Shown: one piece after another, positions 1 to 24,532 of the stretch
Layout of the letters: the number at the start of each line of letters is the position of its first letter
Numbering within the stretch: the first letter of the stretch is position 1
Source: an uncultured bacterium
GTDB lineage: Bacteria > DUMJ01
Assembly: GCA_937958695.1 (NCBI GenBank)
Contig: CALGNK010000032.1
Location: forward strand, 1 to 24,803
DNA: 24,803 bases
Reading direction: 5' to 3'
Notes under the pieces: generated by a model
The model's database searches: none
What the model was told of the DNA's origin: nothing
The model's input: the letters and a program-made list of their open reading frames with translations, nothing else
Made by a program: the position numbers and the translations under genes

Positions 1-702
1 CTGCTAGCTGATCTACTGTTACATAGTCTGCTAGCTGATCTACTGTTACATAGTCTGCTAGCTGATCTACTGTTACATAGTCTGCTAACTGGTCTACTGT
101 TACATAGTCCGCTAGCTGATCTACTGTTACATAGTCTGCTAGCTGATCTACTGTTACATAGTCGGCTAGCTGATCTACTGTGACATAGTCTGCTAACTGA
201 TCTACTGTTACATAATCAGCTAACTGATCTACTGTGACATAGTCCGCTAGCTGATCTACTGTGACATAGTCTGCTAGCTGATCTACTGTGACATAGTCCG
301 CTAGCTGATCTACTGTGACATAGTCCGCTAGCTGATCTACTGTGACATAGTCTGCTAGCTGATCTACTGTGACATAGTCTGCTAGCTGATCTACTGTGAC
401 ATAGTCTGCTAGCTGATCTACTGTGACATAGTCCGCTAGCTGATCTACTGTTACATAGTCCGCTAACTGATCTACTGTGACATAGTCTGCTAGCTGATCT
501 ACTGTTACATAGTCCGCTAACTGATCTACTGTTACATAGTCCGCTAACTGATCTACTGTGACATAGTCTGCTAGCTGATCTACTGTTACATAGTCAGCTA
601 ACTCATCCTTAGTTACATAATTTGCTAAGGCATCAAATGTCACATAGTCTGCTAGCTGATCTGCTTTTACATAGTCCGCTAGATCGTCTAATTTTACATA
701 AT
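1..702 (-). repeat. 27-bp coding tandem repeat, 26 units (nonad peptide repeat)
   Basis: Contiguous 27-bp units begin at 1, 28, 55 and so on to 676. Units 1-22 (1-594) all translate to DYVTVDQLA; they differ only at silent positions such as GTA/GTC, CTA/TTA, GCA/GCG/GCC/GCT and GAC/GAT. Units 23-26 (595-702) are diverged, giving DYVTKDELA, NYVTFDALA, DYVKADQLA and DYVKLDDLA read in gene order from the right. The array reaches the window edge, so the total copy number is unknown. Confidence 0.97.
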
Positions 703-1009
703 CTGCTAAAGCCTCTACCAATTCAGCTTTAGTAACAAATTCGGAAACATCAATAGCCGGTCCCTTCGCAATCTTTTCTAGCTGTGGTATAAGACGAGAA
801 AGAATCATAGCCAGTTCATAACGAGTTAAAGGATTGTTTCCACGGAACGTCCCATCTGGATATCCAACAATTAGACCCCTAGCTGCTAACTCATTGACTG
901 CATCATACGCCCAATGAGTAGAAGGGACATCTGGAAAAGGTGCTGACATGACAGGAACACTAATAGCTAATGCCAACACCATCGTCAAAATTAATATAAT
1001 TCGTTTCAC
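1..1009 (-). CDS. SLH-domain envelope protein with nonad-repeat rod (C-terminus outside window)
   Basis: Secreted cell-envelope protein. I translated it by hand: GTG start at 1009, 336 codons in frame to the left edge, no stop. Residues 1-22 form a signal peptide (two Lys/Arg-type residues, then an Ile/Leu/Val core, cut near MSA). Residues about 24-80 are one SLH domain, with FPDVPSTHWAYDAV, GYPDGTFRG and LTRYELA visible. SLH domains bind modified cell-wall polymers. A short linker leads into 26 tandem nine-residue repeats of consensus DYVTVDQLA. A single N-terminal SLH plus a long rod is the layout of OmpM/Omp-alpha tethers that link the outer membrane to peptidoglycan in several diderm phyla. 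Whether a barrel or anchor follows cannot be seen. The GTG is preceded by AAGGAGG at good spacing; the GTG three bases upstream is closed by TGA after one codon. It has its own promoter and long leader. Confidence 0.9.
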   Translation of the reverse strand, partial: MKRIILILTMVLALAISVPVMSAPFPDVPSTHWAYDAVNELAARGLIVGYPDGTFRGNNPLTRYELAMILSRLIPQLEKIAKGPAIDVSEFVTKAELVEALADYVKLDDLADYVKADQLADYVTFDALANYVTKDELADYVTVDQLADYVTVDQLADYVTVDQLADYVTVDQLADYVTVDQLADYVTVDQLADYVTVDQLADYVTVDQLADYVTVDQLADYVTVDQLADYVTVDQLADYVTVDQLADYVTVDQLADYVTVDQLADYVTVDQLADYVTVDQLADYVTVDQLADYVTVDQLADYVTVDQLADYVTVDQLADYVTVDQLADYVTVDQLA

Positions 1010-2862: not shown

Positions 2863-2896
2863 ACCCGCCAGGATATCTTGGCGGGTTTTATTTTTT
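2863..2896 (+). terminator. Intrinsic terminator after the barrel gene
   Basis: ACCCGCCA (2863-2870) pairs perfectly with TGGCGGGT (2879-2886), followed by TTTTATTTTTT. The stem abuts the stop codon of the convergent operon (2888-2890). On the minus strand the downstream side is not T-rich, so it serves mainly the plus-strand gene. Confidence 0.92.
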
Positions 2897-5629
2897 CCCT
2901 TCTCTTTCCTGTTTTAATCTGGCTATATAAAGCCTAGCTGCATGTTCCATACTAGAAGCTTTTAAAGGAGACTCTTCCTTGGGCTTATAGGCCTTAAATT
3001 CTATAGGCGGATTTTCATAGGAAGATTCATACATAGAAATAGAGCTGGTAGATATTCTAAACCTAGAGAATCTATTTAAAAGAGAATTAAATAGCTCTTT
3101 CTGTTCTCTCAGTGCTGGTAATTTTCTCAGTACCAGTTCAGAGAGGAACAAGATACCTGATAGTAATAAAACAAACTGCCATATATCTATATATTCAACA
3201 TTTAAGCCTCTAATCTTATAATCAAAGACATCTTTGGGATTATTTAATACCCTTCCACCTGTAATCTCCGCAATAGAGTATAACAGTGAGTTATTGCTTT
3301 CTACATCTCTTAGTTCTTTAGAGATTGGGATATAGAATCCACTTAAACTATTTATAACAGTACTTCCCCTATTTAGTTCAATAGAGAGGGAATATATACC
3401 TTCTTCCTTTATATCTACTCTTCCATAATACCTGCCAGAATCTACCTGGGTAAGACTTCCTCTTATTAAATTCCCAGACGGAGAAAATACTTTAAAGGTT
3501 CCTTCTAAAAAGTTAACAAAGTTTCCATTATAGTCGAATACATCCGCTATTATATCTACCCAATTAGATCTCTCTGAGGTCTGTATAGATACATAGTAAC
3601 TAGTTATATCTTGTCCTAACCAACGAACAGCTTGGCTCCAAAATTTAGAGAAAGACGGATAATTAACCCAGCTACTTGTCCATCTCTTTCCCGAATCAGA
3701 GGTAAATGCCACAGCTTTACCAAGCCCATAGCGCCAGTATGCTAATAACGGTTCATTATCTAAAGCGCTCATCAGCTGTTTAGCCTTAGGCTTGATAGAG
3801 GTTGAGACATAACCAGACATAGTTGGAAACTTTTCTATCCCTTCAAGGAAGTCTATATAATCATTTATAATAGGAGCAAATGGCTTTTCTGTTATATAGG
3901 GCCTACTCTTTGTTAAAGTCTCTGTAAGAAATATCTGGGGGATAGAGTATATGTCATTTGTATAGTAGAATCTGCCCTGCCCCCATTCTGCTATATTACG
4001 CATAAGATTTATATCCGCATCGCTACCAATGGCTATAGTAGAAACTGTTATGTCTGATAGCCTCATCTGCTCGACTAAAGATTTAAATCTACCTGGTTCT
4101 GTTTGACCATCAGATAGAACTATCACATGTTTTACTCTAGCTTTCTCATCTTTGAGTGCCAGATATGCAGACTCCATAGGAGGATACATTGCAGTTCCGC
4201 CACCAGGCTGTATCATTGATATCTTCTTAGCAATGCTTTCTCTATTTTTAGCACTTGTAAGGTCTACAATCCACTGGAATGAGTGGTCAAAGGCTATAAC
4301 CCCCACCCTATCCTGATCTTTTAATAGGTCCACAACCAATTGCGCTGACTCTTTAGCCAAATCTATCTTAGCAAGTTCACCTTCCTGTCCACTCATACTT
4401 CCAGATGCGTCAATAACAAGAACCAATGCTATATTAGAAAGACTGGCTGTCTGTGTAATTCTAGAATCTACTGGAAGGGTCTCTTCTAGAGGAGTTCCCA
4501 TATAAGACCCCATACCAAAACTATTAGGACCTCCTATGACAATAAGTCCACCCCCAGCATCTCTGACAAAGGATTGAATAGCCTTCATCTGATTTAAAGT
4601 AAGGAGTGATGCTGAGACATCGTCTAATATCAATGTAGAGTATCCGGAAAAGCCAATAGTACTATCTGGTATCTTCCCTGGGGTTACTATCTCTAAGTCT
4701 ATACCTTGAGCCTTAAGGGCAGACAAAACTTGACCATAACCTACACTGGGATTATATACATAGAGGACCTTCGGAGGGCCTTCTACAACCGTAAACGCTT
4801 CTGCAGTGTTATTTTCAATTCTGGTATCCTTTTTTGGGAAAATCTCCGCCTTAAATTTATGAAAACCTACACTTTTAGAAGTTACGCTGAATAAAAAGAG
4901 ATTTCTTCCTTCTTTAATAGGTAGATTCTGAGAGATGATCTTCTTACCATCCTGGTACAAATCAAAACCTATATTCTGAATAGTTGAACTTACTACTATA
5001 ACCTTTATAACAAAGGGTTCCCTAAGTTTTACCTTATTAGGCATTTCCAACTCTTCTATAGCAACTTCATCAAGAGGTTCTCTTACTATAGGATATACAT
5101 CTATCTTGATATCCTTTCCTCTAGCCCTATAAGAAGCCTCTATAGCTGACCCGTCCGTCTCATTTCCATCGGTAATTAGGACTAACCTTCTATTATTTCT
5201 GTCAGATTGAGAAAGAATCACATTAGAAAGGTCTATTGCCTTTTCTATATCTGTTCCCTTTGAACCAGGGTAAGCTTTTATCTCTATAGAAGGAGTATAA
5301 GATAGGGGGGATTGAGTTAGAGCGTCTTCACCAAACACAATAAAACCAACCCTATCATTCTCTTCCTTATAGTCTAAAGATCTTTCTATGAATGTTAAAC
5401 CTTCACTCCTAAGATTAGAGGGGATACTATCTGACACGTCTAATGCAAAGACTACATCTAAGCTATTATCCTTTTTTATAATCTGAGGCCCGGTTAGAGC
5501 AAAGATTAAAAGAGTCATAGCGATAACCCTTAGCCAAAGACTTTTTTTATGGAGTCTACTTTTATTTAACCAGATGAATAGAAAAACTAAAGATAAAAGT
5601 AATAATGAATAGATATAACTAATCCTCAA
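2888..5629 (-). CDS. Membrane protein with two vWA domains and a GATase-like domain
   Basis: 913 residues, last gene of the MoxR/vWA operon. Order: two N-terminal membrane helices (about 7-21 and 31-51); first vWA domain with MIDAS motif DVSDS (64-68), Thr126 and TDG (153-155); a beta-sandwich-like stretch (about 195-282); a class I glutamine-amidotransferase-like fold (about 286-385) in which I see no catalytic Cys at the usual elbow (IGGPNSFGMGSY); second vWA domain with DASGSM (407-412), GGGT (476-479) and LSDG (505-508); a beta-rich region (about 625-770); a C-terminal helix (816-834) and a charged cytoplasmic tail. Both MIDAS sites look complete, so both vWA domains should bind a metal and a partner. 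The bulk probably lies outside the cytoplasmic membrane. The start overlaps the upstream stop by 4 bp. Large vWA/GATase-like proteins of this type are common in MoxR operons; their target is unknown. Confidence 0.85.
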   Translation of the reverse strand: MRISYIYSLLLLSLVFLFIWLNKSRLHKKSLWLRVIAMTLLIFALTGPQIIKKDNSLDVVFALDVSDSIPSNLRSEGLTFIERSLDYKEENDRVGFIVFGEDALTQSPLSYTPSIEIKAYPGSKGTDIEKAIDLSNVILSQSDRNNRRLVLITDGNETDGSAIEASYRARGKDIKIDVYPIVREPLDEVAIEELEMPNKVKLREPFVIKVIVVSSTIQNIGFDLYQDGKKIISQNLPIKEGRNLFLFSVTSKSVGFHKFKAEIFPKKDTRIENNTAEAFTVVEGPPKVLYVYNPSVGYGQVLSALKAQGIDLEIVTPGKIPDSTIGFSGYSTLILDDVSASLLTLNQMKAIQSFVRDAGGGLIVIGGPNSFGMGSYMGTPLEETLPVDSRITQTASLSNIALVLVIDASGSMSGQEGELAKIDLAKESAQLVVDLLKDQDRVGVIAFDHSFQWIVDLTSAKNRESIAKKISMIQPGGGTAMYPPMESAYLALKDEKARVKHVIVLSDGQTEPGRFKSLVEQMRLSDITVSTIAIGSDADINLMRNIAEWGQGRFYYTNDIYSIPQIFLTETLTKSRPYITEKPFAPIINDYIDFLEGIEKFPTMSGYVSTSIKPKAKQLMSALDNEPLLAYWRYGLGKAVAFTSDSGKRWTSSWVNYPSFSKFWSQAVRWLGQDITSYYVSIQTSERSNWVDIIADVFDYNGNFVNFLEGTFKVFSPSGNLIRGSLTQVDSGRYYGRVDIKEEGIYSLSIELNRGSTVINSLSGFYIPISKELRDVESNNSLLYSIAEITGGRVLNNPKDVFDYKIRGLNVEYIDIWQFVLLLSGILFLSELVLRKLPALREQKELFNSLLNRFSRFRISTSSISMYESSYENPPIEFKAYKPKEESPLKASSMEHAARLYIARLKQEREGKK

Positions 5630-7425
5630 TTGACTTTCCTCCTATCATAAAAGAGATAACCTTCTAAGAATACGATACCTAGAGTCCCTAAGGCTAGAAA
5701 TCTCCATATGTCCGTATTTAATATGGTTCTTTCCTGATAAGCAGTATCTCCTTTAAACTCCCTAGGAGAAACTTTAGGTGATATATCAGATTCTGAAAAG
5801 GAACAGAGATTAACACCTACATCTATATTCCCCAAACTGCTTTTAAATGAATAGACCCCAACCTTATGTGTATCACCAAAAGATACTGACCTTCTATCAT
5901 CAGTTGTCCTCTTTACAATACCATAGGGGGTAGTTATAGTAATGTTTTCATTCATCTCTCTGGTTCTCAACGTAATGACATTACTAGTATAGGCTACACT
6001 GGGAGATGGATTCTCACCTAACCAGTCTACAATATTCTTTATTAGTATTGGAAAGTTAGGTGACTCAATTAAGGAACTCTCCTCAGGATAAAAACCAAAG
6101 GCAACAATCCTGCCAAAATTTCCCTCATATCTCCAAAGAATAGAACCATTTTTAACCCTAATAAGATTTTCACCCTGGCTGCTTTCGAATACGGCTGACC
6201 TTTTTATATTTATATCTTTTAGATCTACAAATCTCATGATAGGATTAGTAGCATCTACACGAATTATAGTTGGCCTTTCTTCCACCTCTACAACCTGTAA
6301 AGGCATGTTAGATGGAATCTTCCCTATAAATATATAGTTACCAGGTAAGATCTCATTGGGAGCAGTACCATCAAATATCACGATATCATACTTAGATAAC
6401 ATCTCTAAATCAAATGATTCTACTTTATCAAGAACACCTATATCTGCAAGTGAGAGCGCTATCTCTAAGTATGGATTCTCCTTACTTACAAGTAATACGG
6501 ATGGTTTAACTCTAGGAAACGTTAGATAAGCTTTATCATCTATAGAAAGCAGATCGTTCGGATATATTATTGCCTTTACTACACCACTAAATCTTTTAGG
6601 CCCAACAATAACAACTCTTTCTTCCTTTGAATTCAACTCTAAGGTAGTTGTATCTATAAGCTTTTCACCTTCCCAAATCTGTAGAGGGACAGATCTTTTA
6701 TTTTTAGAAAAGTTTTTAACCTTTATAAATATCTCTTTCTCTCCCTTTATTCCAGTATCTCTTGCACTGATACCGGTTATACCAACATTATTATCATCTT
6801 TAGAGAAGGTTAAAAGTTCTATGGGTAAAGTATAAGGAATATCTTCTTCAAAAGCTCCATCAGTAAAGATATATATTACATCAGGTTTTTTACTAAGCTT
6901 TTCTATATAATTTAACGTCTCAATTATATTACCTTCTGTATCCGTTGGATAAAGATTATTTACAACATCTTTTGCTCTTCTTTTGTCTGTAGTGTAATCT
7001 AAAAGAAACCTAGTCTTTGAGTCTGATGCAAAAACAGAAATACTAGTTCCTCTTCCTAAAGAGTCTAAAACTTCTAGTGCCCTCTCTCTTGCCAGATCAA
7101 ATCGAGTCGGCTTTATATCCTTCGCCTGCATACTACAGGAGGTATCGATTATGAAAACAACATTCTTAGCCTTTACAGAAAAGAACATCGCCGGCTTAAC
7201 AAGACCTAATGTTATTAGAATAATGGCTAAGATCTGTAAGATTAAGAGGATATCTTTTAGGAATTTCTTAAATACTGAGTATCTTAACTCTTCCTTAGTA
7301 TACCTCTTCCACAGATATGTACTTGAAACTATAAGGACCTGTCTTCTTGTCCTTAGTAGGTATAGAAGTATAACTATAGGGATTGCCAAAAGAAAGAAGA
7401 AATATATTGGTGCAAGAAAGCTCAT
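5626..7425 (-). CDS. BatA-like membrane vWA protein
   Basis: 599 residues. The N-terminus matches the BatA/aerotolerance-regulator N-terminal region: FLAPIYFFFLLAIPIVILLY (helix 1, about 3-24), a basic loop, then helix 2 (about 57-80). A vWA domain follows, with MIDAS motif DTSCSM (94-99), candidate Thr at 161/163 and FTDG (187-190). The remaining 380 residues are beta-rich, with a possible degenerate GATase-like segment around residues 320-360, and end in a C-terminal membrane helix (about 574-592) and a basic tail. This fits a protein with a vWA domain and a large extracytoplasmic part between membrane anchors. It overlaps its neighbours by 4 bp on both sides, indicating translational coupling. 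The Bat name comes from Bacteroides aerotolerance genes; no such role is shown here. Confidence 0.85.
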   Translation of the reverse strand: MSFLAPIYFFFLLAIPIVILLYLLRTRRQVLIVSSTYLWKRYTKEELRYSVFKKFLKDILLILQILAIILITLGLVKPAMFFSVKAKNVVFIIDTSCSMQAKDIKPTRFDLARERALEVLDSLGRGTSISVFASDSKTRFLLDYTTDKRRAKDVVNNLYPTDTEGNIIETLNYIEKLSKKPDVIYIFTDGAFEEDIPYTLPIELLTFSKDDNNVGITGISARDTGIKGEKEIFIKVKNFSKNKRSVPLQIWEGEKLIDTTTLELNSKEERVVIVGPKRFSGVVKAIIYPNDLLSIDDKAYLTFPRVKPSVLLVSKENPYLEIALSLADIGVLDKVESFDLEMLSKYDIVIFDGTAPNEILPGNYIFIGKIPSNMPLQVVEVEERPTIIRVDATNPIMRFVDLKDINIKRSAVFESSQGENLIRVKNGSILWRYEGNFGRIVAFGFYPEESSLIESPNFPILIKNIVDWLGENPSPSVAYTSNVITLRTREMNENITITTPYGIVKRTTDDRRSVSFGDTHKVGVYSFKSSLGNIDVGVNLCSFSESDISPKVSPREFKGDTAYQERTILNTDIWRFLALGTLGIVFLEGYLFYDRRKVN

Positions 7426-8297
7426 TTAAGCCACCCCGCTAGCCTCATATAGTAAAGAACAACCCTATCTATAGGGATACCTGAACTAGCCCTAATGTAT
7501 TCTATGCTATGGTCAAGACAGAAGGATTCAATCTCTTCTAAGAATCTCTTAAGGGTTTGCTTATACCCATTTAATATATCGTCAACCTCGTCCAGTTCTA
7601 TAACTTCACCCGTCTCTGAATCTATAAGTTTTACACTCCCAGAGATTGGTGGAGATATCTCTTCTTCTGAGAGTATATGAAATACAAACGTCTCATATCC
7701 TCTAGCGCTTAGAATTTTTAGTCCCTCCTCATATCCATTTGGATCCAAAAAATCAGAAAGTATTATAAATACAGCTTTACCTCTTAATCCTTTAAGAGAT
7801 TCCTTTACTGCATTATTTAAAAATGTAACTCCTTGAGGTTCTAAAATATCTAAAAATTTTAAAAGTCTCATAATATTAGCTCTACCACGTAGAGCTTCTA
7901 ATCTTTTCTCTAAAGTTGAAGAAATACAGTAAACATTTACTAGGTCATAGTTAACAAGCCCTATATATCCAAGACTTGCAGACAATTGTTTACCAAAGTA
8001 TATCTTAGAAGGATCTCCAAACCCCATAGACTTACTTATATCAAAAAGTATATTTATAACACTAATCTCTTCTTCTCTAAAGAGTTTTACAAAAAGCTTA
8101 TCAAGTCTTGCGTATATATTCCAGTCTATATAACGAAAATCGTCTCCTATCTCGTAACTTCTATAATCTTGAAATTCTATCCCTCTGCCATATCTAGAGC
8201 TCAATCTTTCTCCAACACTAGATCCTTTGACTGACCTCTTTATAATTAAATCTAATCTCTCTAAATAGCTGAGAAATTCAGGACTTAACAGGCTCAT
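7422..8297 (-). CDS. DUF58 (vWA-like) protein
   Basis: 291 residues, soluble. The DUF58 signature is clear: GRGIEFQDYRSYEIGDDFR then RYIDWN (55-60), AR and LFVKLFREEE. A vWA-like fold follows, with DISKS (86-90) as a MIDAS-type DxSxS motif and a later FIILSDFLDP segment. DUF58 proteins are almost always encoded next to MoxR ATPases and membrane vWA proteins, and are thought to work with them as an adaptor. The gene starts 20 bp inside the end of the MoxR gene and overlaps the next by 4 bp. The extended overlap with moxR is typical of these pairs and supports coupled synthesis. Confidence 0.93.
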   Translation of the reverse strand: MSLLSPEFLSYLERLDLIIKRSVKGSSVGERLSSRYGRGIEFQDYRSYEIGDDFRYIDWNIYARLDKLFVKLFREEEISVINILFDISKSMGFGDPSKIYFGKQLSASLGYIGLVNYDLVNVYCISSTLEKRLEALRGRANIMRLLKFLDILEPQGVTFLNNAVKESLKGLRGKAVFIILSDFLDPNGYEEGLKILSARGYETFVFHILSEEEISPPISGSVKLIDSETGEVIELDEVDDILNGYKQTLKRFLEEIESFCLDHSIEYIRASSGIPIDRVVLYYMRLAGWLK

Positions 8298-9261
8298 TCT
8301 CTAACTCAGGGACCTCCTCCAAGATATGATCAATAATGGTATCTGTATCTAGCCCTTCTGCTTCTCCTTCAAAATTTAGAATAATCCTATGTCTTAAAGA
8401 AGACTTAGCAACATATCTGATATCAGAAAAGCTCACATTGTATCTACCTTCTATAAGAGCCTTAACCTTGGCTCCAAGTATAAGTGACTGAACTCCTCTT
8501 GGGCTAGCCCCATAACGGACATATCTTCTAACCATAGAAGGTGAAGACTCAAGCTCAGGATGAGTTGCTAGGACAAGTCTAACCGCATAATCCTTCACTG
8601 GGCTAGAAACAGGAACACTTCGTATCTCTTTCTTTTTTATCTCTATAGCTTCTCCATCCAAAACCTTATCTGCTCTTGGTATTTGAGGATTTGTTGTTCT
8701 ATCAATTATATCAATAAGCTCTTCTTTATTGGGAAAACCTAATTTAAGCTTAAAAAAGAATCTATCTAACTGTGCTTCAGGTAAAGGATATGTTCCTTCC
8801 ATCTCTATAGGGTTTTGTGTAGCCATTACAAAAAATGGCTCTTTCAGTCTATGAATAGTGCCAGAAACGGTTACGCTATGTTCCTGCATTGCCTCAAGTA
8901 ATGCAGATTGTGTCTTAGGTGTAGCTCTATTAATCTCATCAGCCAAAACTATCTGGGCAAAAATAGGCCCAGGCTGAAACCTAAATGTCCTATCCTGTTC
9001 CATAACATTTGTCCCTATAATGTCTGAAGGCATAAGGTCTGGAGTAAATTGTATCCTCGAAAATGTAAGGTCTAGGGCCTCTGCTAATGTCTTTACCATT
9101 AATGTCTTTCCTAGCCCTGGAAGTCCTTCCAATAATATATGCCCACCACTAAATAGAGCTATTAAAACTTGCTCTATAATGTCATCATATCCTACTATTA
9201 CTTTTGAAATCTCTCCCTTGAGTTTATTAAATATATCCCTAAATTCTTCTCTAAATTCCAT
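8278..9261 (-). CDS. MoxR-family AAA+ ATPase
   Basis: 327 residues. Walker A is GLPGLGKT (46-53), Walker B is VLADE (105-109) followed by INRATPKTQSALLEAMQE, sensor 1 lies in MATQNP (Asn150), and Arg167 in EAQLDRF is a likely arginine finger. These are hallmarks of the MoxR (AAA_3) family. MoxR ATPases use ATP hydrolysis to remodel or load cofactors into partner complexes, usually together with vWA proteins; the classic case is activation of methanol dehydrogenase. The substrate is unknown here. The ATG at 9261 follows AAAGGAGAG and comes 3 bp after the upstream stop. It is the motor of the operon, placed directly before its DUF58 partner. Confidence 0.95.
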   Translation of the reverse strand: MEFREEFRDIFNKLKGEISKVIVGYDDIIEQVLIALFSGGHILLEGLPGLGKTLMVKTLAEALDLTFSRIQFTPDLMPSDIIGTNVMEQDRTFRFQPGPIFAQIVLADEINRATPKTQSALLEAMQEHSVTVSGTIHRLKEPFFVMATQNPIEMEGTYPLPEAQLDRFFFKLKLGFPNKEELIDIIDRTTNPQIPRADKVLDGEAIEIKKKEIRSVPVSSPVKDYAVRLVLATHPELESSPSMVRRYVRYGASPRGVQSLILGAKVKALIEGRYNVSFSDIRYVAKSSLRHRIILNFEGEAEGLDTDTIIDHILEEVPELENEPVKS

Positions 9262-9264
9262 ACA

Positions 9265-10611
9265 TTACTCTCCTTTCAGTCTTTCAAAATAAAGTTTTAT
9301 CGTCTCTCTATATTCAGAGGGAACATTCTCTTTTCTTATAGGATCCTCTATTGACTTAATAGGGCTACCTACACTTTCTTCTATCGAAGGGGAAACCTCC
9401 TTACCCACATTCTTTATTTTTAATCTTATATCTCCTTCTTCTTTGGCTATACCTGAGACATATTGTGGTATACCTTGGTTAAAAAGTCTTTCAGATTCTT
9501 CGCCTAGCTTATTTTCTCTTTCTCCTTTACCAGGTAAAGATCCACCCTCTTCAACGGTCTCCTTACCTCCTACAGCATCTTCTCCTCTTTTATTTTCTTT
9601 AGATGAAGCATCAATATCTCCTTGAGAACCTCCTTCCATCTTATTACCCGTTCCCTCTTTCTTATCTAGATTAGATGTAACATCAGTGTTTTCCCCTGTA
9701 GAAGAATCTTTACCGCTACCATCACCACTGTCTAACTCACTCCTATCCTTCATTGGATAATCTCCACTTTCAGACCCTGATTCTTCACCAGATAAACCTC
9801 TATTAGAGGCAAGTTGCCTTTCACCTTCTTTACCTTTGCCTCTATCATCTTGAGAAGTATTACTAGTATTATCACTATTCATCTTATTCATAACTGCCTC
9901 TAACATCCTTTTTATATCCATCCTAGTATTTGTATCCATACCACTACTAGCTTCCTTTTCTATTTCTTTAGTTATCTCCTTCAAAACACTCAAGCCATCC
10001 TCTTTCTTAATCTTCTTCTCTTCAATCTCCTTCCTAAGGATCTCCAACCTCTTGGCTAACTCTGGTCTCTCAGAGACCAACTTTTGTTCTAATCTAAGAA
10101 TATCTGACTCTATAATACTTTGAGTAGCTATGTTTGTTTCTCTAGAGGAGATAAATTTAGGGTAGAAGATATTCTGATAGAACATCAGGGATAAAAAAAG
10201 TATTGAAGGAACAAGAAGTGCATACTTAATCCTCTTTCTAAATCTTAAAGGATAAACCCTCTTTAAATCCACAGTTTTTAGTAAGTTTAATGTATCATCT
10301 AAAAGTCTTTTTATAATGGGAGAATCATCTTTAGAAAATTCCAAACTAGTTATAACCCTCTCTTTAAGATCTAGATCTCTATCTATTACTATAGCTACCT
10401 TATCATCATCTATAGGCTTAATAATAGAGAGCACTAGAGCAATGAAAAAGGGGATTAGTAGATACAAATATGATATATCAAAATGGAAGAAGTATCCCAA
10501 TACAAATATGGTAGAAGTATATATTGATAATTCCAGGGTCCAATTTAAAAACATAACAGTTCTTATTTTCAGTCTAACTAGTGAGATAAACCTTCTAAGT
10601 TCTGCTGACAT
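9265..10611 (-). CDS. MoxR-operon membrane protein with coiled coil and acidic linker
   Basis: 448 residues. Three membrane helices (about 22-42, 47-65, 129-146) hold a cytoplasmic loop with IDRDLDLKERVITSLEF (a segment of this type recurs in DUF4175-like MoxR-operon proteins). A charged helical or coiled-coil part follows (about 160-240). Residues about 240-375 are a low-complexity linker rich in Ser, Gly, Glu, Asp and Lys. The conserved-looking C-terminus ends VPSEYRETIKLYFERLKG, similar to tails I know from proteins encoded beside MoxR. The ATG follows GAGGAGGT at 6-nt spacing and lies 17 bp inside the end of the permease gene. Function unknown. The layout suggests a membrane scaffold whose flexible arm presents a short C-terminal binding motif to MoxR or the vWA proteins, which is inference. 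Confidence 0.75.
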   Translation of the reverse strand: MSAELRRFISLVRLKIRTVMFLNWTLELSIYTSTIFVLGYFFHFDISYLYLLIPFFIALVLSIIKPIDDDKVAIVIDRDLDLKERVITSLEFSKDDSPIIKRLLDDTLNLLKTVDLKRVYPLRFRKRIKYALLVPSILFLSLMFYQNIFYPKFISSRETNIATQSIIESDILRLEQKLVSERPELAKRLEILRKEIEEKKIKKEDGLSVLKEITKEIEKEASSGMDTNTRMDIKRMLEAVMNKMNSDNTSNTSQDDRGKGKEGERQLASNRGLSGEESGSESGDYPMKDRSELDSGDGSGKDSSTGENTDVTSNLDKKEGTGNKMEGGSQGDIDASSKENKRGEDAVGGKETVEEGGSLPGKGERENKLGEESERLFNQGIPQYVSGIAKEEGDIRLKIKNVGKEVSPSIEESVGSPIKSIEDPIRKENVPSEYRETIKLYFERLKGE

Positions 10612-11290
10612 TAATTGACCTCCTCAAATAAATTGTTCTCCAAAGAGTGAGGATTAAACCTAAAAGTCCAATAAAAAGATAGTAAACTAACCCTTCTCTC
10701 TTTGAATGATATACGAGAATCAAAGGATTCATAAGATTTAAAGGGGTAGAAAATCTTGCAGTAAATACTAATAAAACGACTATACCAATCCAAAAAAGGA
10801 TTACTGGGAATATCTTCTCTTTTAATGTTGAGACAAAGTATCCCCAACAAGCTAGGCTTAAATCTACTACTATCAGGATTGAGAAGAAATATTTAAGATT
10901 CCCATCTATGCCTAGATTAAGAGCTAAAAGATTAAACGGCAATACAGAGATAAGCATAATCAGAAGGTGAATAAAGAATGCTATAAGTTTACCAAAAACT
11001 ATACTAAAGACAGAAAAATTGCTGCCAATAGCTAGATCCCTAATAGTCTTCTCACTATCTGCAAGAGAGTTACCCATAGTTATTACCGCGGTGAAAGCCA
11101 AGAAGATAAAAAATTCCGAAATAGCCATAACTATAAAAAGCTTTGGAATAAAGCTATTCATAACTCTCTGAGATCCGGGAGCAGATAACACAAAGACAAA
11201 GAAGAGTATAAATAGAGATATACTCCAAAACTTTATAAAATCTAAGCTATTTATCCTAGCTTCTAGATCTTTCCAAATTATAGTAATTAT
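10595..11290 (-). CDS. ABC-2-type transporter permease, apparent non-AUG start
   Basis: About 231 residues with six hydrophobic segments. The N-terminus TIIWKDLEARINSLDFIKFW has the amphipathic 'KxL..R..S' helix typical of ABC-2 permeases, then a helix, LSAPGSQRVMNSFIP and five further helices. The first canonical start codon in frame is GTG at 11191, but that would cut off the conserved N-terminus and half of the first helix. The frame is open up to 11341 with no ATG, GTG or TTG above 11191. A strong GGAGGT at 11304-11299 sits 8 nt before an in-frame ATA (11290-11288) and 11 nt before ATT (11287-11285), so I place the start there. No ABC ATPase gene is adjacent. The 3' end overlaps the next gene by 17 bp. 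Confidence 0.75.
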   Translation of the reverse strand: MITIIWKDLEARINSLDFIKFWSISLFILFFVFVLSAPGSQRVMNSFIPKLFIVMAISEFFIFLAFTAVITMGNSLADSEKTIRDLAIGSNFSVFSIVFGKLIAFFIHLLIMLISVLPFNLLALNLGIDGNLKYFFSILIVVDLSLACWGYFVSTLKEKIFPVILFWIGIVVLLVFTARFSTPLNLMNPLILVYHSKREGLVYYLFIGLLGLILTLWRTIYLRRSINVSRT

Positions 11291-11304
11291 AGTTTCAGAC
11301 CTCC
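11285..11304 (-). promoter_or_regulatory. Shine-Dalgarno that sets a non-AUG start
   Basis: GGAGGT (11304-11299) precedes ATA (11290) and ATT (11287) and overlaps the last codons of the upstream gene, whose TGA is at 11297-11295. This spacing matches the 8 nt seen at other genes in the window, so ATA or ATT is the probable initiation codon. Confidence 0.55.
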
Positions 11305-12767
11305 AAGAGATATAGTGTGAAAATATTAATATTACTTGATTTTAACTCGATATCTACTGGTACTGTATATATCCATCCTAGTATATAATTCTTCTCACCT
11401 AATAATATTATACCACTATCTATAAGCCAAGATAGAATTTTCCCTCTAATATCCTCTCTATTTACTCTTGACAATCTTGATAGCTCTATTAAGAACCTAT
11501 TCGTTCCAATCTTTATATCATCTAGGGGGATGTAACCATTACTATCCAGAAAGTAGACATTATGTAGGATATAAGAGGAGTTATTAATAACTGTAACATT
11601 ATTGCCGTCTTTATATGCCTTAATATTATGCTCTAGAACTCCCCAACCCCTAAGAAGGCCAAACTTATTCAGTCCTAGATTTATCCGCACTAAAGTTCTA
11701 CCTTTATCTTCATTATTAAAGGTTGTCTCTGCAATTCTTCTTTCTCTTCTACTTATCCAGAAAACAAGATCCTTTGGGTTATACGAAAAACTCCAAGTTC
11801 TATTATAAGGAGAAAAGACCGCTAACCCTGAATAAAATTTTGCATACTGAGAGTTTTTATTTACTGCTATAAGGTTAACCTGTATACCTATATCACTACT
11901 ATCCTTTGTTCTTAACGTCAAATTAAAGAGTAGATAAGAAAAGGCAAGACTAATTAGAATATATATCCCAATTCTCTTTAAGAAATGTCCCTTGGAATAG
12001 TATAGAAAAAGGAAAATTGATAATACATGAAGAAAAAGTATCAGTGATATAAATGCCTTAGACGGTAATGGCACATCCTGTTCTTTCACTAGGTCTAAAA
12101 CTAAGGGAGAAAGGTCAACATCTCCTGGATAAGAATCTCGTCTAAACTTATCTATAGTACTAGAAGGATCCTTCAAAACCACTCCACCTAAAGCTACCCA
12201 TTTATCTAATAAATTCTTCAATCTATGGAAAGAGAGAGGACTAAGAGAAACTATATCAAATGGATCTAGTATAAAGACTGGCTTATCTAAAAGCCTATCA
12301 GACTCAAGAGATAAAACCCTACTTCCTCCTCTGTAAGGCAATGTCCAATTATCTATAAAGCAGATAATCGGTAATCTCATATCCAATTCTTTTATCTCAT
12401 AGTCTAAAGACCTTAATAGTTTTCCATCTCGAGAGTATATAGATACTTTTACAGGATGTCTCACATCAGAAATAGGAACTAAGAAAAGGTATTCTCTCTT
12501 AGAGTACATTGGTATATCTACTTCTGACTTTAGTATAACAGTTGTTATATTTTCTAATATTATGCTTCCCTCTTTTACCTCTATCTCTATGTTACCCTTA
12601 AATGGAACACTGTAGGTCTTTATAATTACACTAATGGGATTCCATCTACCAGTCTTTACTACTCCATTGAAGCCAAACTCTACATTTATATCTACCCCCA
12701 CCTGGGAATAAGCCTTAGCGGAAATAAATAGAAATATCAATAGAAAAGGGAAAAATCTAAATTTCAT
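11295..12767 (-). CDS. Secreted/membrane protein heading the MoxR/vWA operon
   Basis: 490 residues. A signal peptide covers 1-21 (ends SAKAYS). A beta-rich domain begins VDINVEFGFNGVVKTGRWNP; this 'FGF.G..K.GRW.P' pattern recurs in proteins encoded with MoxR/DUF58 genes. Around residues 165-205, FDIVSLSPLSFHRL followed by WVALGGVVL looks like the core of a GATase-like fold without catalytic residues. Two membrane helices lie at about 238-255 and 264-283, followed by a second beta-rich domain to the C-terminus. The ATG follows GGAGGT (12776-12771) closely. It is the first gene of the operon; the permease start lies 4 bp beyond its stop. Role unknown; an extracytoplasmic partner of the permease or of the vWA proteins is my best inference. 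Confidence 0.65.
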   Translation of the reverse strand: MKFRFFPFLLIFLFISAKAYSQVGVDINVEFGFNGVVKTGRWNPISVIIKTYSVPFKGNIEIEVKEGSIILENITTVILKSEVDIPMYSKREYLFLVPISDVRHPVKVSIYSRDGKLLRSLDYEIKELDMRLPIICFIDNWTLPYRGGSRVLSLESDRLLDKPVFILDPFDIVSLSPLSFHRLKNLLDKWVALGGVVLKDPSSTIDKFRRDSYPGDVDLSPLVLDLVKEQDVPLPSKAFISLILFLHVLSIFLFLYYSKGHFLKRIGIYILISLAFSYLLFNLTLRTKDSSDIGIQVNLIAVNKNSQYAKFYSGLAVFSPYNRTWSFSYNPKDLVFWISRRERRIAETTFNNEDKGRTLVRINLGLNKFGLLRGWGVLEHNIKAYKDGNNVTVINNSSYILHNVYFLDSNGYIPLDDIKIGTNRFLIELSRLSRVNREDIRGKILSWLIDSGIILLGEKNYILGWIYTVPVDIELKSSNINIFTLYLLEV

Positions 12768-16892: not shown

Positions 16893-18056
16893 ATGAATAC
16901 TGAAGAAAAGCTTCTAATATTAGGAAGGTCTGCTCAGTATGACCTCTGCGGTAATTATCTCTGTCAGGGGGCACATAGGATAAGGAGTGGATATGGACAG
17001 TGGATTTATCCCGCAGTGCTTCCTGATGGAAAGGAAATAAAACTATTTAAGGTCCTTTTATCTAACAACTGTTCGAATAACTGTAATTATTGTGCTAATA
17101 GATATGAGAGAGATTTTACCAGGATAAAATTTACCCCTCAAGAACTGGCTAAGGCATTTATCAACTTAAAAGGAAAAAAGCTAGTCCAAGGACTATTTCT
17201 CAGTTCTGCAGTCGATTATGATCCCAAAAAGACAATGGAAGATATGATAAAGGCTGTGGAGATTCTAAGATTTAACTATAGATTCAACGGATACATCCAT
17301 CTTAAGATACTACCAGGTGTAACTAGGGACTATATAGAGCAGGCTATGAGACTAGCAGATAGGGTCTCAGTAAATCTTGAGGCTCCAAGTGGAGAAAGGC
17401 TAAAGAAATTAAGTATAGACAAAGACTTTAATAGGGACCTCATAGGAACTATAAAGGTCATAAAGGAATTGGTAGATAGAGGTATAAAACCAAGGGCAGG
17501 TTATACAACACAGTTTGTAGTTGGTCCTGCAGGTGAATCTGATAAAGAACTAATATATCTAGTAGATAGATTATATAAAGAGCTAGGATTAAAGAGGGCA
17601 TACTTTAGTGCCTTTCAGCCTATAAGAAATACTCCATTGGAAGACTATCCTCCTACTCCTCTGATAAGAGAACATAGATTATATCAGGCGGACTTTTTAT
17701 TGAGAGATTATGGATTCTCTGCCGATGAACTTGTATTCAACAGGGATGGAAAACTCTTCCTGCCCGTGGACCCAAAGCTCGCTTGGGCAATGAACCATCC
17801 TGAATATTTTCCAGTTGAGATTAATACAGCAGATATGACAAGGCTTCTTAGAATTCCAGGGATCGGACCCAAGTCTGCAAGAAGAATTATAGAATATCGG
17901 AAAAAGGAAAAGATAAAAGACCTAGAGACATTAAAAGGATTAGGGGTGGTAGTTAAAAGAGCAAAAAATTTTATACTTATCAGTGGCAAAAAGGTTAAAG
18001 AAGAAAAATATACCCAACTCCCACTTATATCCTCTGAACTATTACAAGCTGTCTAA
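16893..18056 (+). CDS. Radical SAM/HhH protein, putative DNA modification/repair type
   Basis: 387 residues. The 4Fe-4S motif is NNCSNNCNYCANR, with Cys60, Cys64 and Cys67 (CX3CX2C). The core continues with FLSSAVDYDP, GYIHLKILPG, VSVNLEAPS and YTTQFVVGPAGE. A C-terminal helix-hairpin-helix region (about 311-340, LLRIPGIGPKSARRIIEYR) suggests nucleic-acid binding. The N-terminus (LGRSAQYDLCG) and overall layout match the family annotated as 'putative DNA modification/repair radical SAM protein', normally encoded with a uracil-DNA-glycosylase-like partner. No such partner is in this window. The activity of the family has not, to my knowledge, been established. Expressed from its own promoter, monocistronic, convergent with the UroD-like gene 30 bp away. 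Confidence 0.88.
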   Translation: MNTEEKLLILGRSAQYDLCGNYLCQGAHRIRSGYGQWIYPAVLPDGKEIKLFKVLLSNNCSNNCNYCANRYERDFTRIKFTPQELAKAFINLKGKKLVQGLFLSSAVDYDPKKTMEDMIKAVEILRFNYRFNGYIHLKILPGVTRDYIEQAMRLADRVSVNLEAPSGERLKKLSIDKDFNRDLIGTIKVIKELVDRGIKPRAGYTTQFVVGPAGESDKELIYLVDRLYKELGLKRAYFSAFQPIRNTPLEDYPPTPLIREHRLYQADFLLRDYGFSADELVFNRDGKLFLPVDPKLAWAMNHPEYFPVEINTADMTRLLRIPGIGPKSARRIIEYRKKEKIKDLETLKGLGVVVKRAKNFILISGKKVKEEKYTQLPLISSELLQAV

Positions 18057-19993: not shown

Positions 19994-20365
19994 CTATATA
20001 TCTTTTATAGTATACCCCTCTTTCAATGCTATTTCTACCGCCTTCTTTTCCTCTTTTGTAAGATTATCATTGCCTCCCACCATATAAGGTTTAAGGTAAA
20101 GATAAGACTGATCTCTGGTATGTATAGAGGTAAGTATAATTCCTTTATCTCCAGCCATAAAAGCTAGAGAAAAACTAAGCTTGCCAGACATCCCTTGAAA
20201 AGCATCGTATCTAGTTCCACCTATAGATAGAGAAGAAAGGATCAATTCCCCCTTTTGTCTCTCCTCAATCCTCTTTATATTAGTCCTTAAAATAATAACA
20301 ATCACAAGAAGAATTATGTTTACTACTATTAATGCACCAATAGAAAATAAGATTATCTCATTCAT
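19994..20365 (-). CDS. DUF4446 family membrane protein
   Basis: 123 residues. One N-terminal membrane helix (about 5-27), a short coiled helix (IKRIEERQKGE), then a small domain with GTRYDAFQGMSGKLSFSLA, GIILTSIHTRDQSYLY and a C-terminal LTKEEKKAVEIAL. These fit DUF4446, which in many Firmicutes lies near the origin beside the rsmG/parB region. Function unknown. It overlaps the end of rsmG by 8 bp and is followed by the M23 peptidase, hinting at a cell-envelope or division-related role (inference). Confidence 0.8.
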   Translation of the reverse strand: MNEIILFSIGALIVVNIILLVIVIILRTNIKRIEERQKGELILSSLSIGGTRYDAFQGMSGKLSFSLAFMAGDKGIILTSIHTRDQSYLYLKPYMVGGNDNLTKEEKKAVEIALKEGYTIKDI

Positions 20366-20915
20366 ACCTTTTTTCTTCCAATAGAACCAAACCTGGTTTA
20401 ATCTTATATCCTACTCCTTCTGATTTAAATAGTATCATTCTTCCACCAATCTTTAATAAGGGAAAGATAATAGACCTCAGATAATCGGTCTCTCCCACCC
20501 CTCTTGATAAAGCAATATCAAAAGCTTCAATAAACTTTGTGTCTTCCCTTAACTTATTAGCATCCACACATAGAACCTCTACATTTTTAAGTTGAAGTTT
20601 AGTCTTAACTAAATTTAGAAAAGCAGTCCTCTTAATAGAAGCATCAACTAATAAGAAATTAGCATCTTCTTGCACTATAGCTAAGGGAATACCTGGAAAT
20701 CCTGCCCCAGATCCTATATCTATAACCCTTTTATCTCTCCAATCCTCAATAACTAGGAGTGGAGCTAAGGATTCCTCTATAAGTTTTATAAATTCCTCCT
20801 TTTGGCGTGCACCAGAAAGATTAAAACTCTTTCGTGCTTTCAAAAGTTCTTCCAAATACATATTAAGCCTTGGATATCTCTCGCTTATATAACTCCAAGT
20901 ATACAAGTAAGACAT
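20358..20915 (-). CDS. rsmG: 16S rRNA (guanine527-N7)-methyltransferase RsmG, short form
   Basis: 185 residues. The SAM-binding motif [17 protein letters not shown] (64-80) and [12 protein letters not shown] are diagnostic of RsmG, which methylates G527 (E. coli numbering) of 16S rRNA. The usual N-terminal helix is present ([15 protein letters not shown]). The protein is shorter than the common 205-240 residues and stops at EEKRYE, without the usual last beta-strand. From ATG 20915 it overlaps mnmG by 53 bp; an in-frame ATG at 20861, directly after the mnmG stop, is an alternative start (167 residues). I keep the longer form because it restores the family's first helix, but neither has a strong Shine-Dalgarno. 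The position after mnmG is conserved in many bacteria. Confidence 0.85.
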
Positions 20916-22698
20916 CTATATCTGCAGGACTAACCCCTTGTAATCTACTAGCCTGCCCTAATGTTCTAGGCCTAATCTGATTTAATCTGTCCCGAGCTTC
21001 AAGGGAAAGTCCCTTAATAGCATTGTAGTCTATATCTTCAGGCAAAACTTTATCATCTAGTTGACTAAATCTCTTAATCCTTTCTTCTTCTCTTTTTATA
21101 TACCCCTCATATTTTACCTTAGCTTCTAATCTACTTATGAGTTCAGAGGATAGGGTAGTCTCCATACCTAATCTTTTTAAAAGGTCCAAATAGGATATTT
21201 CGGGTCTCTTTAGATAGTTGTAAGCAGATATCTTCATTTCAGGGATGCTAATCCTTTTAAGTCTCTCTATCTCTTCCTCTATAAGTTCTTTCCTCTCTAG
21301 CATCTCTCTGTATGTTCTTTCATCTATTAAACCAATCCTGTATCCCTTTTCCATAAGCCTTTCATCCGCATTATCCTGCATAAGTACAAGGCGATACTCT
21401 GCTCTAGATGTAAGTATCCTATATGGTTCTACTATCCCTTTAGTTATTAGGTCATCTATAAGAACACCAATATAGGCTTCGTTCCTCTGAAGATAAAAAG
21501 GCTCTCTATTTTGAACATAGAATGCTGCATTTATACCTGCTATAAGCCCTTGAGCCGCCGCCTCTTCATATCCAGAGGTCCCATTTATCTGTCCAGCGAG
21601 GAAAAGTCCAGAAATTCTTTTAGTCTCTAGTGTCTCTTTTAGTTGATCAGGATATACCATATCATACTCTATAGCATAACCTGGTCTCATAATTTCAACT
21701 TCTTCTAAGCCAGGTATTGATCTCAAGAGCTCTATCTGAACCTCTTCAGGCAAACTAGTATACATACCTTGCACATACATCTCATTGGTATGTATCCCTT
21801 CTGGCTCTATAAACACCTGATGTCTCTCTCTGTGCGGGAAATGTACAACTTTAGTCTCAAAAGAAGGGCAGTACCTAGTTCCAGTTCCAGTTATCTTTCC
21901 TGCATACATAGGAGCCCTATGGAGATTCTTTAATACTATCTCTCTGGTCTTCTCAGTTGTAAAGGTAAGCCAACAAGAAAGCTGTTTTCTGCCAATAACT
22001 TCAGCTAATTCTGTTCTATAGGAAAATCTAAGGGGAACCTCACTTGGTGGCTGTTCTGTCATTTTAGAAAAATCTACCGTTCTTCCATCTACCCTAGGAG
22101 GTGTTCCAGTCTTAAATCTACCAATCCTAAAACCAAGATTTCTAAGGGACTGAGTCAACTCTTCGCTAGGAGGTTCTCCAGATCTTCCGGCAGGATAAGA
22201 TACTTCTGTACCTATAAAAACCCTGCCACCAAGGAATGTCCCAGTAGTTATAACAACTGCCCGACCATAGAACTCTTGGTTAGTCTTCGTTTTTACACCT
22301 ATTACCCTATTACCATCAACCAAGACATCTGTTACTTGGGCTTGTCTTAGGATAAGGTTAGGTGTATTTTCAAGCTTCTCCTTCATATAGATATGATAAA
22401 ACTTCTTCTCTACCTGAGCCCTATAAGCCCTTACAGCTATACCTTTTCCGGAATTGAGGACCCTTATATGTATATAAGTAGCATCGGTAGCTCTGCCTAT
22501 CTCTCCGCCAAGGGCGTCTATCTCTCTGACTAGATGGCCCTTACCAGGACCTCCTACTGCTGGATTACAAGGCATCCAGCCTATAGTATCTAGGTTTCCT
22601 GTCAAAAGCAAAACACTACAGCCCAATCTATTGGCAGAAAGGGCAGCCTCTATACCAGCATGTCCTGCTCCTACTACAATAACATCAAAAGTCTTCAT
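20863..22698 (-). CDS. mnmG: tRNA uridine-34 carboxymethylaminomethyl synthesis enzyme MnmG (GidA)
   Basis: 611 residues. FAD-binding [14 protein letters not shown] (7-20), the family motif [27 protein letters not shown], the FKTGTPPR segment, [13 protein letters not shown] and the C-terminal [15 protein letters not shown] are all present. With MnmE it modifies the wobble uridine (xm5U34) of certain tRNAs, using FAD and methylene-tetrahydrofolate. Length is normal. The start overlaps the mnmE stop by 4 bp (ATGA), matching the MnmE-MnmG complex. Confidence 0.97.
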
Positions 22699-24050
22699 TT
22701 TCCCACGCAGAATCTAGAAAAGATTTCCTCAACTATATCTATACCAGCAGTTTCTCCTGTAATCTCTCCTAATATATTATAACTCTCCCACACTTCACCT
22801 GCTACAATATCGATAGGTAGTTTAGTATTAATACCTTCTAGTGCAGTTAAAAGTCTATTAATACATCTTTTGATAAGTGCCTCATGTCTAGTATTTATAG
22901 GGATCACAAACTCTGGAGAGGGGACGTTCCCCAAAAGTTCCTTTAGCTTTAACCTTAATCTATCTATACCTTCTCCTGTCTTACAAGAGACTTCCACTAC
23001 TGGTCCATATATCTTTAAATCTTCAATATAAAGCAATCTATTATTCAGGTCTATCTTGTTTAAGGTTATAATCCTTTTTTTATTCCTAGTAATCTTTTCT
23101 ATCTCTAAATCTTCTTCTTTTAGAGGTTCTGTTACATCTACTACCCAGATAACTATATCTGCATTCTCTATTGAGGACATAGTCCTATTAACTCCAATGC
23201 TTTCTACCAAATCCTGGGTCTCCCTAATACCGGCAGTATCTATTAATGTAAGAGGAATACCTTCTATAGAGATAGATTCAGTTATTGTATCTCTTGTAGT
23301 ACCTGGTATAGGAGTTACTATAGCCCTCTCCTCTCCAAGTAAGATGTTTAAGAGACTAGACTTTCCAACATTTGGTCTTCCAACTATTGGACAATAAAGA
23401 CCCTTTCTATATAATCTAGTGAAGTATGCACCATCTAAAAGATTATTAAGCCTTTCTATAATTTTAGAGACCTTTTCGCTTATAGACTCATAGGAAAGCT
23501 CTACTTCTTCAGGGAAATCTATTCCAGCCTCTAATTCTGCTATAAGCTCTTTTAAATTCTCCATAATTGGTTTTATCTCCCTACTCAATACCCCTTGAAG
23601 CTGAGAAAAAGAAGACCTAAGGCCAGCTTCACTTCTAGCTTGTATAATATCTATAATTGCCTCTGCCCTAGAGAGGTCTAATTTCCCATTTAAAAAAGCC
23701 CTCTTAGTAAATTCTCCAGGCAATGCTAATCTTGCGCCCAACTCTATCAAGAGCTTAATTATTAGCTCTTCTAGGACTGGACTTCCATGCACATAAAATT
23801 CTACCGTATCCTCCCCTGTATAACTATGTGGAGCCCTCATAACAAGCAAAAGGCACTCGTCTAGTTTCTCCTCTGTCTTTGGATTGATGATATATCCAAA
23901 GACAACCCTATGAGAAGGTACATTCTTTAGACTCTTCTTACCCCTGAAAATTTTCTGAGCAATTTCTATAGAGGTCGATCCACTTAGTCTTATTACCCCT
24001 ATACCAGATTCCCCATAAGGGGTGGAGAGGGCTACAATAGTATCATACAT
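22695..24050 (-). CDS. mnmE: tRNA modification GTPase MnmE (TrmE)
   Basis: 451 residues. An N-terminal folate-binding domain ([39 protein letters not shown]) is followed by the G domain with GRPNVGKS (224-231), [13 protein letters not shown] (271-278) and NKIDL. The C-terminus is FCVGK, the family's CxGK motif. It partners MnmG in wobble-uridine modification. The ATG overlaps the khpB stop by 8 bp and has only a poor Shine-Dalgarno, so translation is probably coupled to khpB. Confidence 0.97.
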
Positions 24051-24516
24051 TTCTAGGTTTTAACGCTACTATAACCCTCCTCTTAGGTTCCTTTCCTTCA
24101 CTGTAGGTGATAACTTCCGGATTATTCTCCAAAGTCTTATGAATTATCCTCCTTAATGCAGCAGGCATTGGTCTAAACACAAACTTCTTTCCAGTCTTTT
24201 TAACCCTAAATGCGGCTCTTCTAGCCAAGAATACTAGTTTTTTCTCCTTATCTGCTCTGTATCCATTTATATCTAAAGTAACCATTACTTCTTCGTCTAT
24301 ACTCCTTCTTACATATAGCCTCAAAAGATGCTGAAGAGAATATAAAATTACCCCTTTTCTTCCTATAAGAAAAGATATATCTTCTCCTTTTAGATTTACC
24401 CAATATATGTTATCTTTCAACTCTACAGATATGTCATACTTAAGTTTATATGGAGCAAGTAATTGGTTTATAAACATCTTCGCAATACTCTCTATACTAG
24501 GTTTTTGTCTCAGCAT
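24043..24516 (-). CDS. khpB: KH/R3H RNA-binding protein KhpB (Jag)
   Basis: 157 residues from ATG 24516. GGAGGT at 24527-24522 lies 5 nt upstream of this ATG and overlaps the possible TTG at 24522, so the ATG is the better start. A KH domain contains IGRKG (51-55), and an R3H domain contains PAALRRIIHKTLENN and the final PKRRVIVAL. The N-terminal Jag_N domain of many homologues is missing, which is common in short forms. KhpB binds RNA and in Firmicutes affects cell elongation and sRNA function. It sits between yidC and mnmE, the conserved place near the origin. Confidence 0.93.
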   Translation of the reverse strand: MLRQKPSIESIAKMFINQLLAPYKLKYDISVELKDNIYWVNLKGEDISFLIGRKGVILYSLQHLLRLYVRRSIDEEVMVTLDINGYRADKEKKLVFLARRAAFRVKKTGKKFVFRPMPAALRRIIHKTLENNPEVITYSEGKEPKRRVIVALKPRNV

Positions 24517-24532
24517 ATGCAACCTCCATCCA

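Follow-up and report, generated by a model that had tools for sequence, protein, structure and literature searches.

The analysed window, a stretch of 24,803 nucleotides that makes up contig C32 of a 2.09-Mb genome (57 contigs, 98% complete), carries at its left end a gene that we read, with a probability of about three in four, as the N-terminal half of an OmpM/SlpA-type connector. According to this reading an SLH anchor would be followed by a trimeric alpha/beta coiled-coil rod of at least 32 nonads, a heptad coil and a barrel encoded on a second contig, C33, the whole serving as a tether or spacer of the outer membrane. The reading starts from the repeat itself, the domains, the homology to other connectors, the synonymous-only variation of the repeat units and their sequence match to the PDB entry 5APZ; the joining of the two contigs, the trimeric state, the fold of the barrel, the length of the rod, the wall ligand and the tether function are inferred. 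The features are collected in Table 1.

Table 1. Features of the putative connector gene on the window (C32) and on contig C33 of the same genome (G000).
Feature	Position	Strand	Remarks
N-terminal half, OmpM/SlpA-type outer-membrane connector gene	2..1009	-	probable remainder at G000:C33 163-1977 (+)
Signal peptide, aa 1-23	941..1009	-	hydrophobic N-terminus MKRIILILTMVLALAISVPVMSA; aligns with the signal peptides of homologues
Single SLH domain, aa 24-67, putative cell-wall anchor	809..940	-	HWAYDAV and TRYE motifs; Pfam E 2.3e-15; SLH match of the genome's own search at C32:809-940
First beta-layer motif FVTKAEL, aa 91-97	719..739	-	alignment and motif scan; counterparts LVTKADL (Riflebacteria) and YVTKPEL (L045)
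26 gap-free nonads, candidate alpha/beta coiled-coil rod, aa 103-336	2..703	-	array cut by the contig end; apparent continuation with six more nonads at G000:C33:1-162 (+)
Probable C-terminal half, six nonads, heptad-like segment and putative barrel	G000:C33:1-1977	+	outside the window

The open reading frame begins with a GTG start codon, encodes 336 aa and remains open at the contig end. Tandem Repeats Finder reports a repeat at 1-708 with a period of 27, 26.2 copies, 89% matches and zero indels, and residue identity within the array protein is 0.95 at lag 9 and 0.94 at lag 18, all other lags up to 19 staying at or below 0.11. The nonad periodicity is far beyond chance, and these results, together with the Pfam match, confirm the original prediction of at least 26 contiguous nonads behind one SLH domain, 22 of them being DYVTVDQLA. 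The first four of the 26 units read DYVKLDDLA, DYVKADQLA, DYVTFDALA and NYVTKDELA. The 22 identical units are written in 10 DNA spellings that differ at five variable sites, all synonymous, so the protein unit is apparently under constraint and the array does not stem from one fresh duplication. It could be argued that the array length is an artefact of assembly or replication, or that the array is a neutral minisatellite with neither unit number nor unit sequence under selection, as the 27-bp units are near-identical, contigs break inside the array in two genomes, and the interior units of a sister species have turned over. We hold this to be improbable, since the differences are synonymous only and neither indels nor frame breaks occur, which points to selection on sequence and register and says nothing about unit number.

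When the genome was searched with the N-terminal region, one other array end was found, inside a 658-codon open frame at the beginning of C33. There, following an initial Ala, six nonads stand in frame (DYVTVDQLA, NYVTFDTLA, DYVTFDDLA, NYVTLDVLA, DYVTFEDLA and NYVTTDDFD), succeeded by a heptad-like coiled coil about 85 residues long and then by about 520 residues with the C-terminus ATTLAVSF; the stop codon is followed by a hairpin-like stretch rich in GC and by a T-run. The in-frame arrays at the ends of C32 and C33 are the only two array ends in the genome, and no contig carries both. Gln is encoded by CAA in the first C33 unit and in no C32 unit; hence, there is no overlap between the two ends and the array counts at least 32 nonads. 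We infer that a single gene is divided between C32 and C33, the assembler having failed to get through the repeat. The C-terminus and the total copy number, which were to be sought to the left of the window, would thus be supplied by C33, as a lower bound in the case of the copy number. The idea of a rod made only of nonads has to be relaxed, as the stalk ends in the heptad-like segment, but nonads do make up most of it.

The sister genome G001 is likewise broken inside the array, with an 81%-identical barrel end on another contig, and in a third genome of the same genus, G002, neither half was found, owing to loss or to a missing contig. The sister species has conserved units at the array edges and different ones inside (DYVTTDALA, DYVTKDELA), which indicates turnover of units, and its nonad register is perfect and gap-free. 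That the halves never share a contig in either broken genome would also suit a separate, paralogous gene on C33, in which case the window protein would end otherwise, for instance in a transmembrane helix like that of Thermotoga Omp alpha, or would be a secreted S-layer protein; the one Thermotogae homologue inspected (L077) does carry a hydrophobic helix at its end instead of a barrel. This arrangement appears very improbable, given that a genome of such completeness has a single start and a single end of an array and two SLH genes only, that the junction is in frame, that the C33 half has no SLH domain of its own, and that barrel-type C-termini occur in SLH relatives from Armatimonadota, Riflebacteria, Negativicutes and Halanaerobiales, all of which favours a single gene.

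Concerning the anchor, the W and TRYE positions of the SLH domain are conserved in the alignment of homologues, and the best PDB relatives of this part are Deinococcus SlpA (7zgx, E 2.6e-17) and Veillonella OmpM1 (8bys, E 4.3e-14). Between the SLH domain and the array, the motif FVTKAEL precedes the first array beta-layer by 13 residues and is hence outside the nonad register. Pfam matches of the N-terminal half to SWIB, PP-binding, DUF7515 and DUF3618 all fall in the stalk or the repeat, with no stretch passing alone, and were rejected as matches to repeat composition.

The structural interpretation of the nonads follows the work of Hartmann et al. (2016, PMC4786415), in which two-residue insertions into heptads yield nonads, with a β-layer formed in the trimer by the three residues at the centre of each. 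The structure was solved for a construct of Tcar0761, a protein that naturally has 14 MATKDDIAN repeats; in the nonad notation IAN-MAT-KDD corresponds to abc-βββ-efg, and small hydrophobic residues are reported to be preferred at the centre of the β-layer (PMC4786415). The unit found here, LAD-YVT-VDQ, has this pattern, with L at position a, YVT as the beta-layer with V at its centre and VDQ at e-f-g, the Val at e being less polar than the Lys of 5APZ. A plain α-helix turns by about 900 degrees over nine residues, so that successive nonads would point their hydrophobic residues to opposite sides, leaving no continuous stripe, a problem solved by the β-layer. A fibre of this kind would be a parallel trimer in which each chain is turned by 120 degrees through short beta-strands. 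Compared with the PDB, the C33 stretch alone matches 5APZ (Tcar0761) at E 7.4e-5, and with a profile built from nonads of this genus only, 5APZ is the sole significant PDB sequence, at E 6.4e-6 and in register. The dominant unit, Y-V-T-V-D-Q, departs from the Tcar0761/DUF3782 beta-layer consensus [aliphatic]-A-T-K-[polar]-[DE], to which only the flanking units YVTKDE and FVTKAE come close, and the protein is therefore not assigned to that family. YVT is a crystallographic β-layer of MPN010, in YVTHKQLDE (PMC4786415); hence, the structural element can form without the consensus. The idea that the nonad rod is an alpha/beta coiled coil is well supported by its sequence.

The AlphaFold2 monomer of the N-terminal half, computed with a 38-row alignment, has a mean pLDDT of 69.7 (about 80 in the rod), and the five models are discordant, down to 40.2. 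It depicts a nine-periodic chain with a 4-5-residue helix at VDQL, a break over ADYVT and no strands in the rod, and must be regarded as unreliable. Such a local alternation of helix and break would be compatible with the α/β assignment, and neither a beta-solenoid nor a disordered chain, the two outcomes named beforehand as speaking against a coiled coil, is seen, a monomer being however no test of a trimer. The same geometry could be taken to mean that the protein is still a connector but each of its chains folds by itself, into a solenoid to which every nonad contributes one very short helix, or into another elongated single-chain fold. The helix of 4-5 residues plus five non-helical ones per nonad at a rod pLDDT of about 80 agrees with this, and VIA-align, with nothing above noise, lists helical-repeat proteins such as MgtE-N and PUF among weak neighbours (Z under 4). 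Nevertheless we consider it unlikely: Foldseek returned no match to the monomer model at E <=0.001, the discordance of the five models spans 69.7 to 40.2, and AlphaFold2 has been reported to be confident but unrealistic on perfect repeats, in a report that concerns beta-solenoids (PMC11795689). Moreover, the match to 5APZ, a solved trimer, is in register and the flanking anchor aligns with OmpM-type stalks. That 5APZ is missing from the fold matches shows nothing, because it was the monomer model that was compared. The alpha/beta coiled coil of the original prediction is thus partly supported, by the in-register match to 5APZ, the YVT of MPN010 and the nonads of the sister species, the structural modelling covering the monomer.

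As for the relatives, homologues in the four phylogenetic groups named above share the order of SLH domain, stalk and barrel-like C-terminus. To compare their stalks we counted β-layer motifs between the SLH domain and the stalk anchor with the regular expression [aromatic/aliphatic]-[VAIT]-[TK]-x-x-x-[aliphatic], leaving out MVTAKML, a chance match at the SLH end; a stalk with no match may still contain a β-layer. Negativicutes show 0 motifs, Riflebacteria typically 1 (LVTKADL, at a fixed place), Armatimonadota and Abditibacteriota 1-4, and this genus at least 33. Repeats in homologues that are not multiples of nine had been put forward as evidence against the continuous fibre, and here the picture is divided, the genus having strict nonads while distant relatives deviate, as in L026, whose motifs YVKRGEI, FVKRGEL, YVKTSDL and LATKADV follow one another in steps of 9, 9 and 12.

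On the C-terminal side of the array, its last unit and the coiled coil, NYVTTDDFDALKSLVADLSDQLEAVGVDVGDLK, align with NLATKADVDALRKLVDEFRDELAALGVDVDALK of L053, and the alignment of the last unit plus downstream residues, NYVTTDDFDALKSLVADLSDQLEAVGVDVGDLKDRISALE, with NLATKADVDALRKLVDEFRDELAALGVDVDALKRDVAALD of the same protein is gapless. Homology of the C33 stalk is further indicated by phmmer, with E values from 4e-9 to 2e-6 for six Armatimonadota/Abditibacteriota proteins. On the N-terminal side, FVTKAEL aligns with the LVTKADL and YVTKPEL of the relatives. Since both flanks align with the relatives' stalk, the array sits between two ancestral β-layers, and is hence best read as their amplification.

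The C-terminal region of about 520 residues on C33 is a putative outer-membrane beta-barrel. Its last 518 residues have an excess of amphipathic ten-residue stretches with z 6.7, against -0.3 to 1.2 in four soluble controls; homologous barrels, taken as positive controls, score 1.2 to 4.0, and as the C33 value lies above some of these, the score is supportive only. The terminal Phe pattern ATTLAVSF resembles the AATLNVKF of relatives. The region gave no Pfam or PDB match, and the AlphaFold2 single-sequence model of the C33 half was set aside with a pLDDT of 31.

We propose that the SLH domain would bind the cell wall, probably via a pyruvylated or otherwise modified wall polymer, that the periplasmic stalk would be mostly a homotrimeric alpha/beta coiled coil of those 32 or more nonads, and that a short heptad coiled coil would connect this rod to a C-terminal beta-barrel, encoded on C33 and embedded in the outer membrane. 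The array would have been amplified between two ancestral beta-layers of an OmpM stalk, its protein sequence being kept uniform, and the rod would act as a stiff spacer, perhaps 30-40 nm long, that fixes the distance from wall to outer membrane. As an estimate, 32 units at about 10-13 Å per nonad would amount to roughly 32-42 nm, to which about 12 nm of heptads are added, and the true unit count may exceed 32. Nine helical residues measure 13.5 Å, which is an upper bound for the rise of a nonad, and a torsion-angle model gave rises of about 2-13 Å per nonad depending on handedness, a range too wide to fix the rod length.

The genome is that of a diderm, with BamA and an adjoining LpxD-like gene (LpxD being named from the sequence by eye), and contains one polysaccharide pyruvyl transferase, a possible source of the SLH ligand. 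Besides the connector gene there is just one further SLH gene, L008 (G000:C24, 2118-2831, +). It encodes 237 aa with an SLH and a soluble domain, the latter without Pfam match, lies near a GroEL-like chaperonin gene and has a counterpart in the sister genome (G001:C23). A family search of the genome found no Pal/OmpA-type tether; a single OmpA-type domain lies between MotA-like and FliM-like genes and hence probably belongs to MotB. With no such tether found, the role of main tether probably falls to the SLH-barrel protein. The original prediction had the rod spanning the periplasm, and bridging of the envelope is indeed plausible because the C33 half supplies a putative barrel, but the span would run from peptidoglycan to outer membrane and not across the whole periplasm. 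Chances are roughly even that this nearly pure alpha/beta fibre of at least 32 beta-layers, longer than any we found described, is a periplasmic ruler whose length evolves by gain and loss of 27 bp.

The distribution of such arrays was analyzed with a nonad profile that included the Tcar0761 repeat. Across 386 genomes, mostly one per family, matches in SLH proteins are confined to this genus, and among 291 Armatimonadota genomes L026 is the only SLH match. Matches in other phyla (G113, G132, G251 and G378) and in G606 of the Armatimonadota are short non-SLH coiled coils with ATKDDL-type units, several of them ending in a hydrophobic helix, and were rejected as different from these tethers; L118, a non-SLH protein from Armatimonadota with a few YAKLSDL/YATLTDL-like units, and L117, which shows no clear gene, were likewise discarded. 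The short non-SLH proteins L105, L106 and L109 (G251, G378) and L103 (G132) have nonad arrays of FATKEDL/FATKDDL in unrelated genomes, and array length differs between closely related genomes (L105 versus L106). A search of Riflebacteria, run without a positive control, was empty. Open-licence papers on nonads and β-layers describe α/β coiled coils (2016) and, in SlpA, one or two β-layers, but none was found to report a tether that carries an array. Neither the fold nor the connector family is new; the novelty lies in a tether with a rod made up almost entirely of nonads.

The remainder of the window gave no Rfam match, nor did the connector gene. An intergenic stretch of about 950 bp (1010-1957) separates the latter from a divergent gene (1958-2845, +) for a 295-aa protein with a signal peptide, the C-terminus LTPYLSFSF and no Pfam match, which resembles a second, SLH-less outer-membrane barrel. 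Overlapping genes at 2888-9261 (-), encoding a MoxR ATPase, a DUF58 protein, a BatA-like VWA protein and a large protein with two VWA regions and a GATase1-like domain, form a Bat/MoxR-type operon, beside which three predicted membrane or secreted proteins without Pfam match are encoded (9265-10611, 10595-11191 and 11295-12767, all -). A radical SAM protein with a helix-hairpin-helix end (16893-18056, +) matches TIGR03916 (putative DNA modification/repair) above cut-off. At 20358-24802 (-), a YidC-like end, Jag, MnmE, MnmG and an RsmG-like methyltransferase stand in a row, a gene order (YidC-Jag-MnmE-MnmG-RsmG) that is frequent near the replication origin.

The α/β coiled coil was a new kind of fibre in 2016, known from a construct with four consecutive β-layers, and structures of this rare nine-residue coiled coil have so far covered short stretches only. 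If the present reading is true, a long natural α/β fibre gains a concrete job, that of tethering the outer membrane. Its relatives, with zero matched motifs up to at least 33, offer intermediate steps that make the growth of the spacer, and the relation of rod length to envelope spacing, testable. The uniform 27-bp unit would also be a handy, length-tunable block for protein design.

Among known systems, SlpA (DR_2577) of Deinococcus radiodurans links peptidoglycan and outer membrane through a 28-nm trimeric stalk with two β-layers (PMC9388160), termed an α-β coiled coil in a second study (PMC9823218), and in Veillonella parvula the trimeric porin OmpM1 also serves as a tether (PMC10628300). 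The present protein resembles both in its signal peptide, one SLH domain, stalk and C-terminal barrel, here putative and on C33. It differs from SlpA, whose stalk is heptad-based apart from its two beta-layers, and from the short-stalked OmpM1 in having tandem nonads, at least 32, as most of its stalk, and its barrel has no detectable sequence relation to theirs. With Tcar0761 (5APZ) it shares uninterrupted nonads of the same pattern (IANMATKDD there, LADYVTVDQ here), whereas the 14 nonads of Tcar0761 lie between long heptad segments, in a family of DUF3782 coiled coils rather than SLH-barrel proteins, and use MAT instead of YVT. The DUF16 protein MPN010 of Mycoplasma pneumoniae (2BA2) comes near the unit found here with its beta-layers YVT and FVT in YVTHKQLDE and FVTKTEF (PMC4786415, Table 2), but it has two beta-layers only, in a hendecad/heptad context, and no SLH-barrel architecture. 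Also close are the SLH-barrel proteins of Armatimonadota (L026, L045, L053, L039) and Riflebacteria (L031, L044), with a homologous SLH domain and coiled-coil anchor and with 1-4 beta-layer motifs at the same place; unlike the protein described here they have no array, at most three consecutive nonads being found, in L026.
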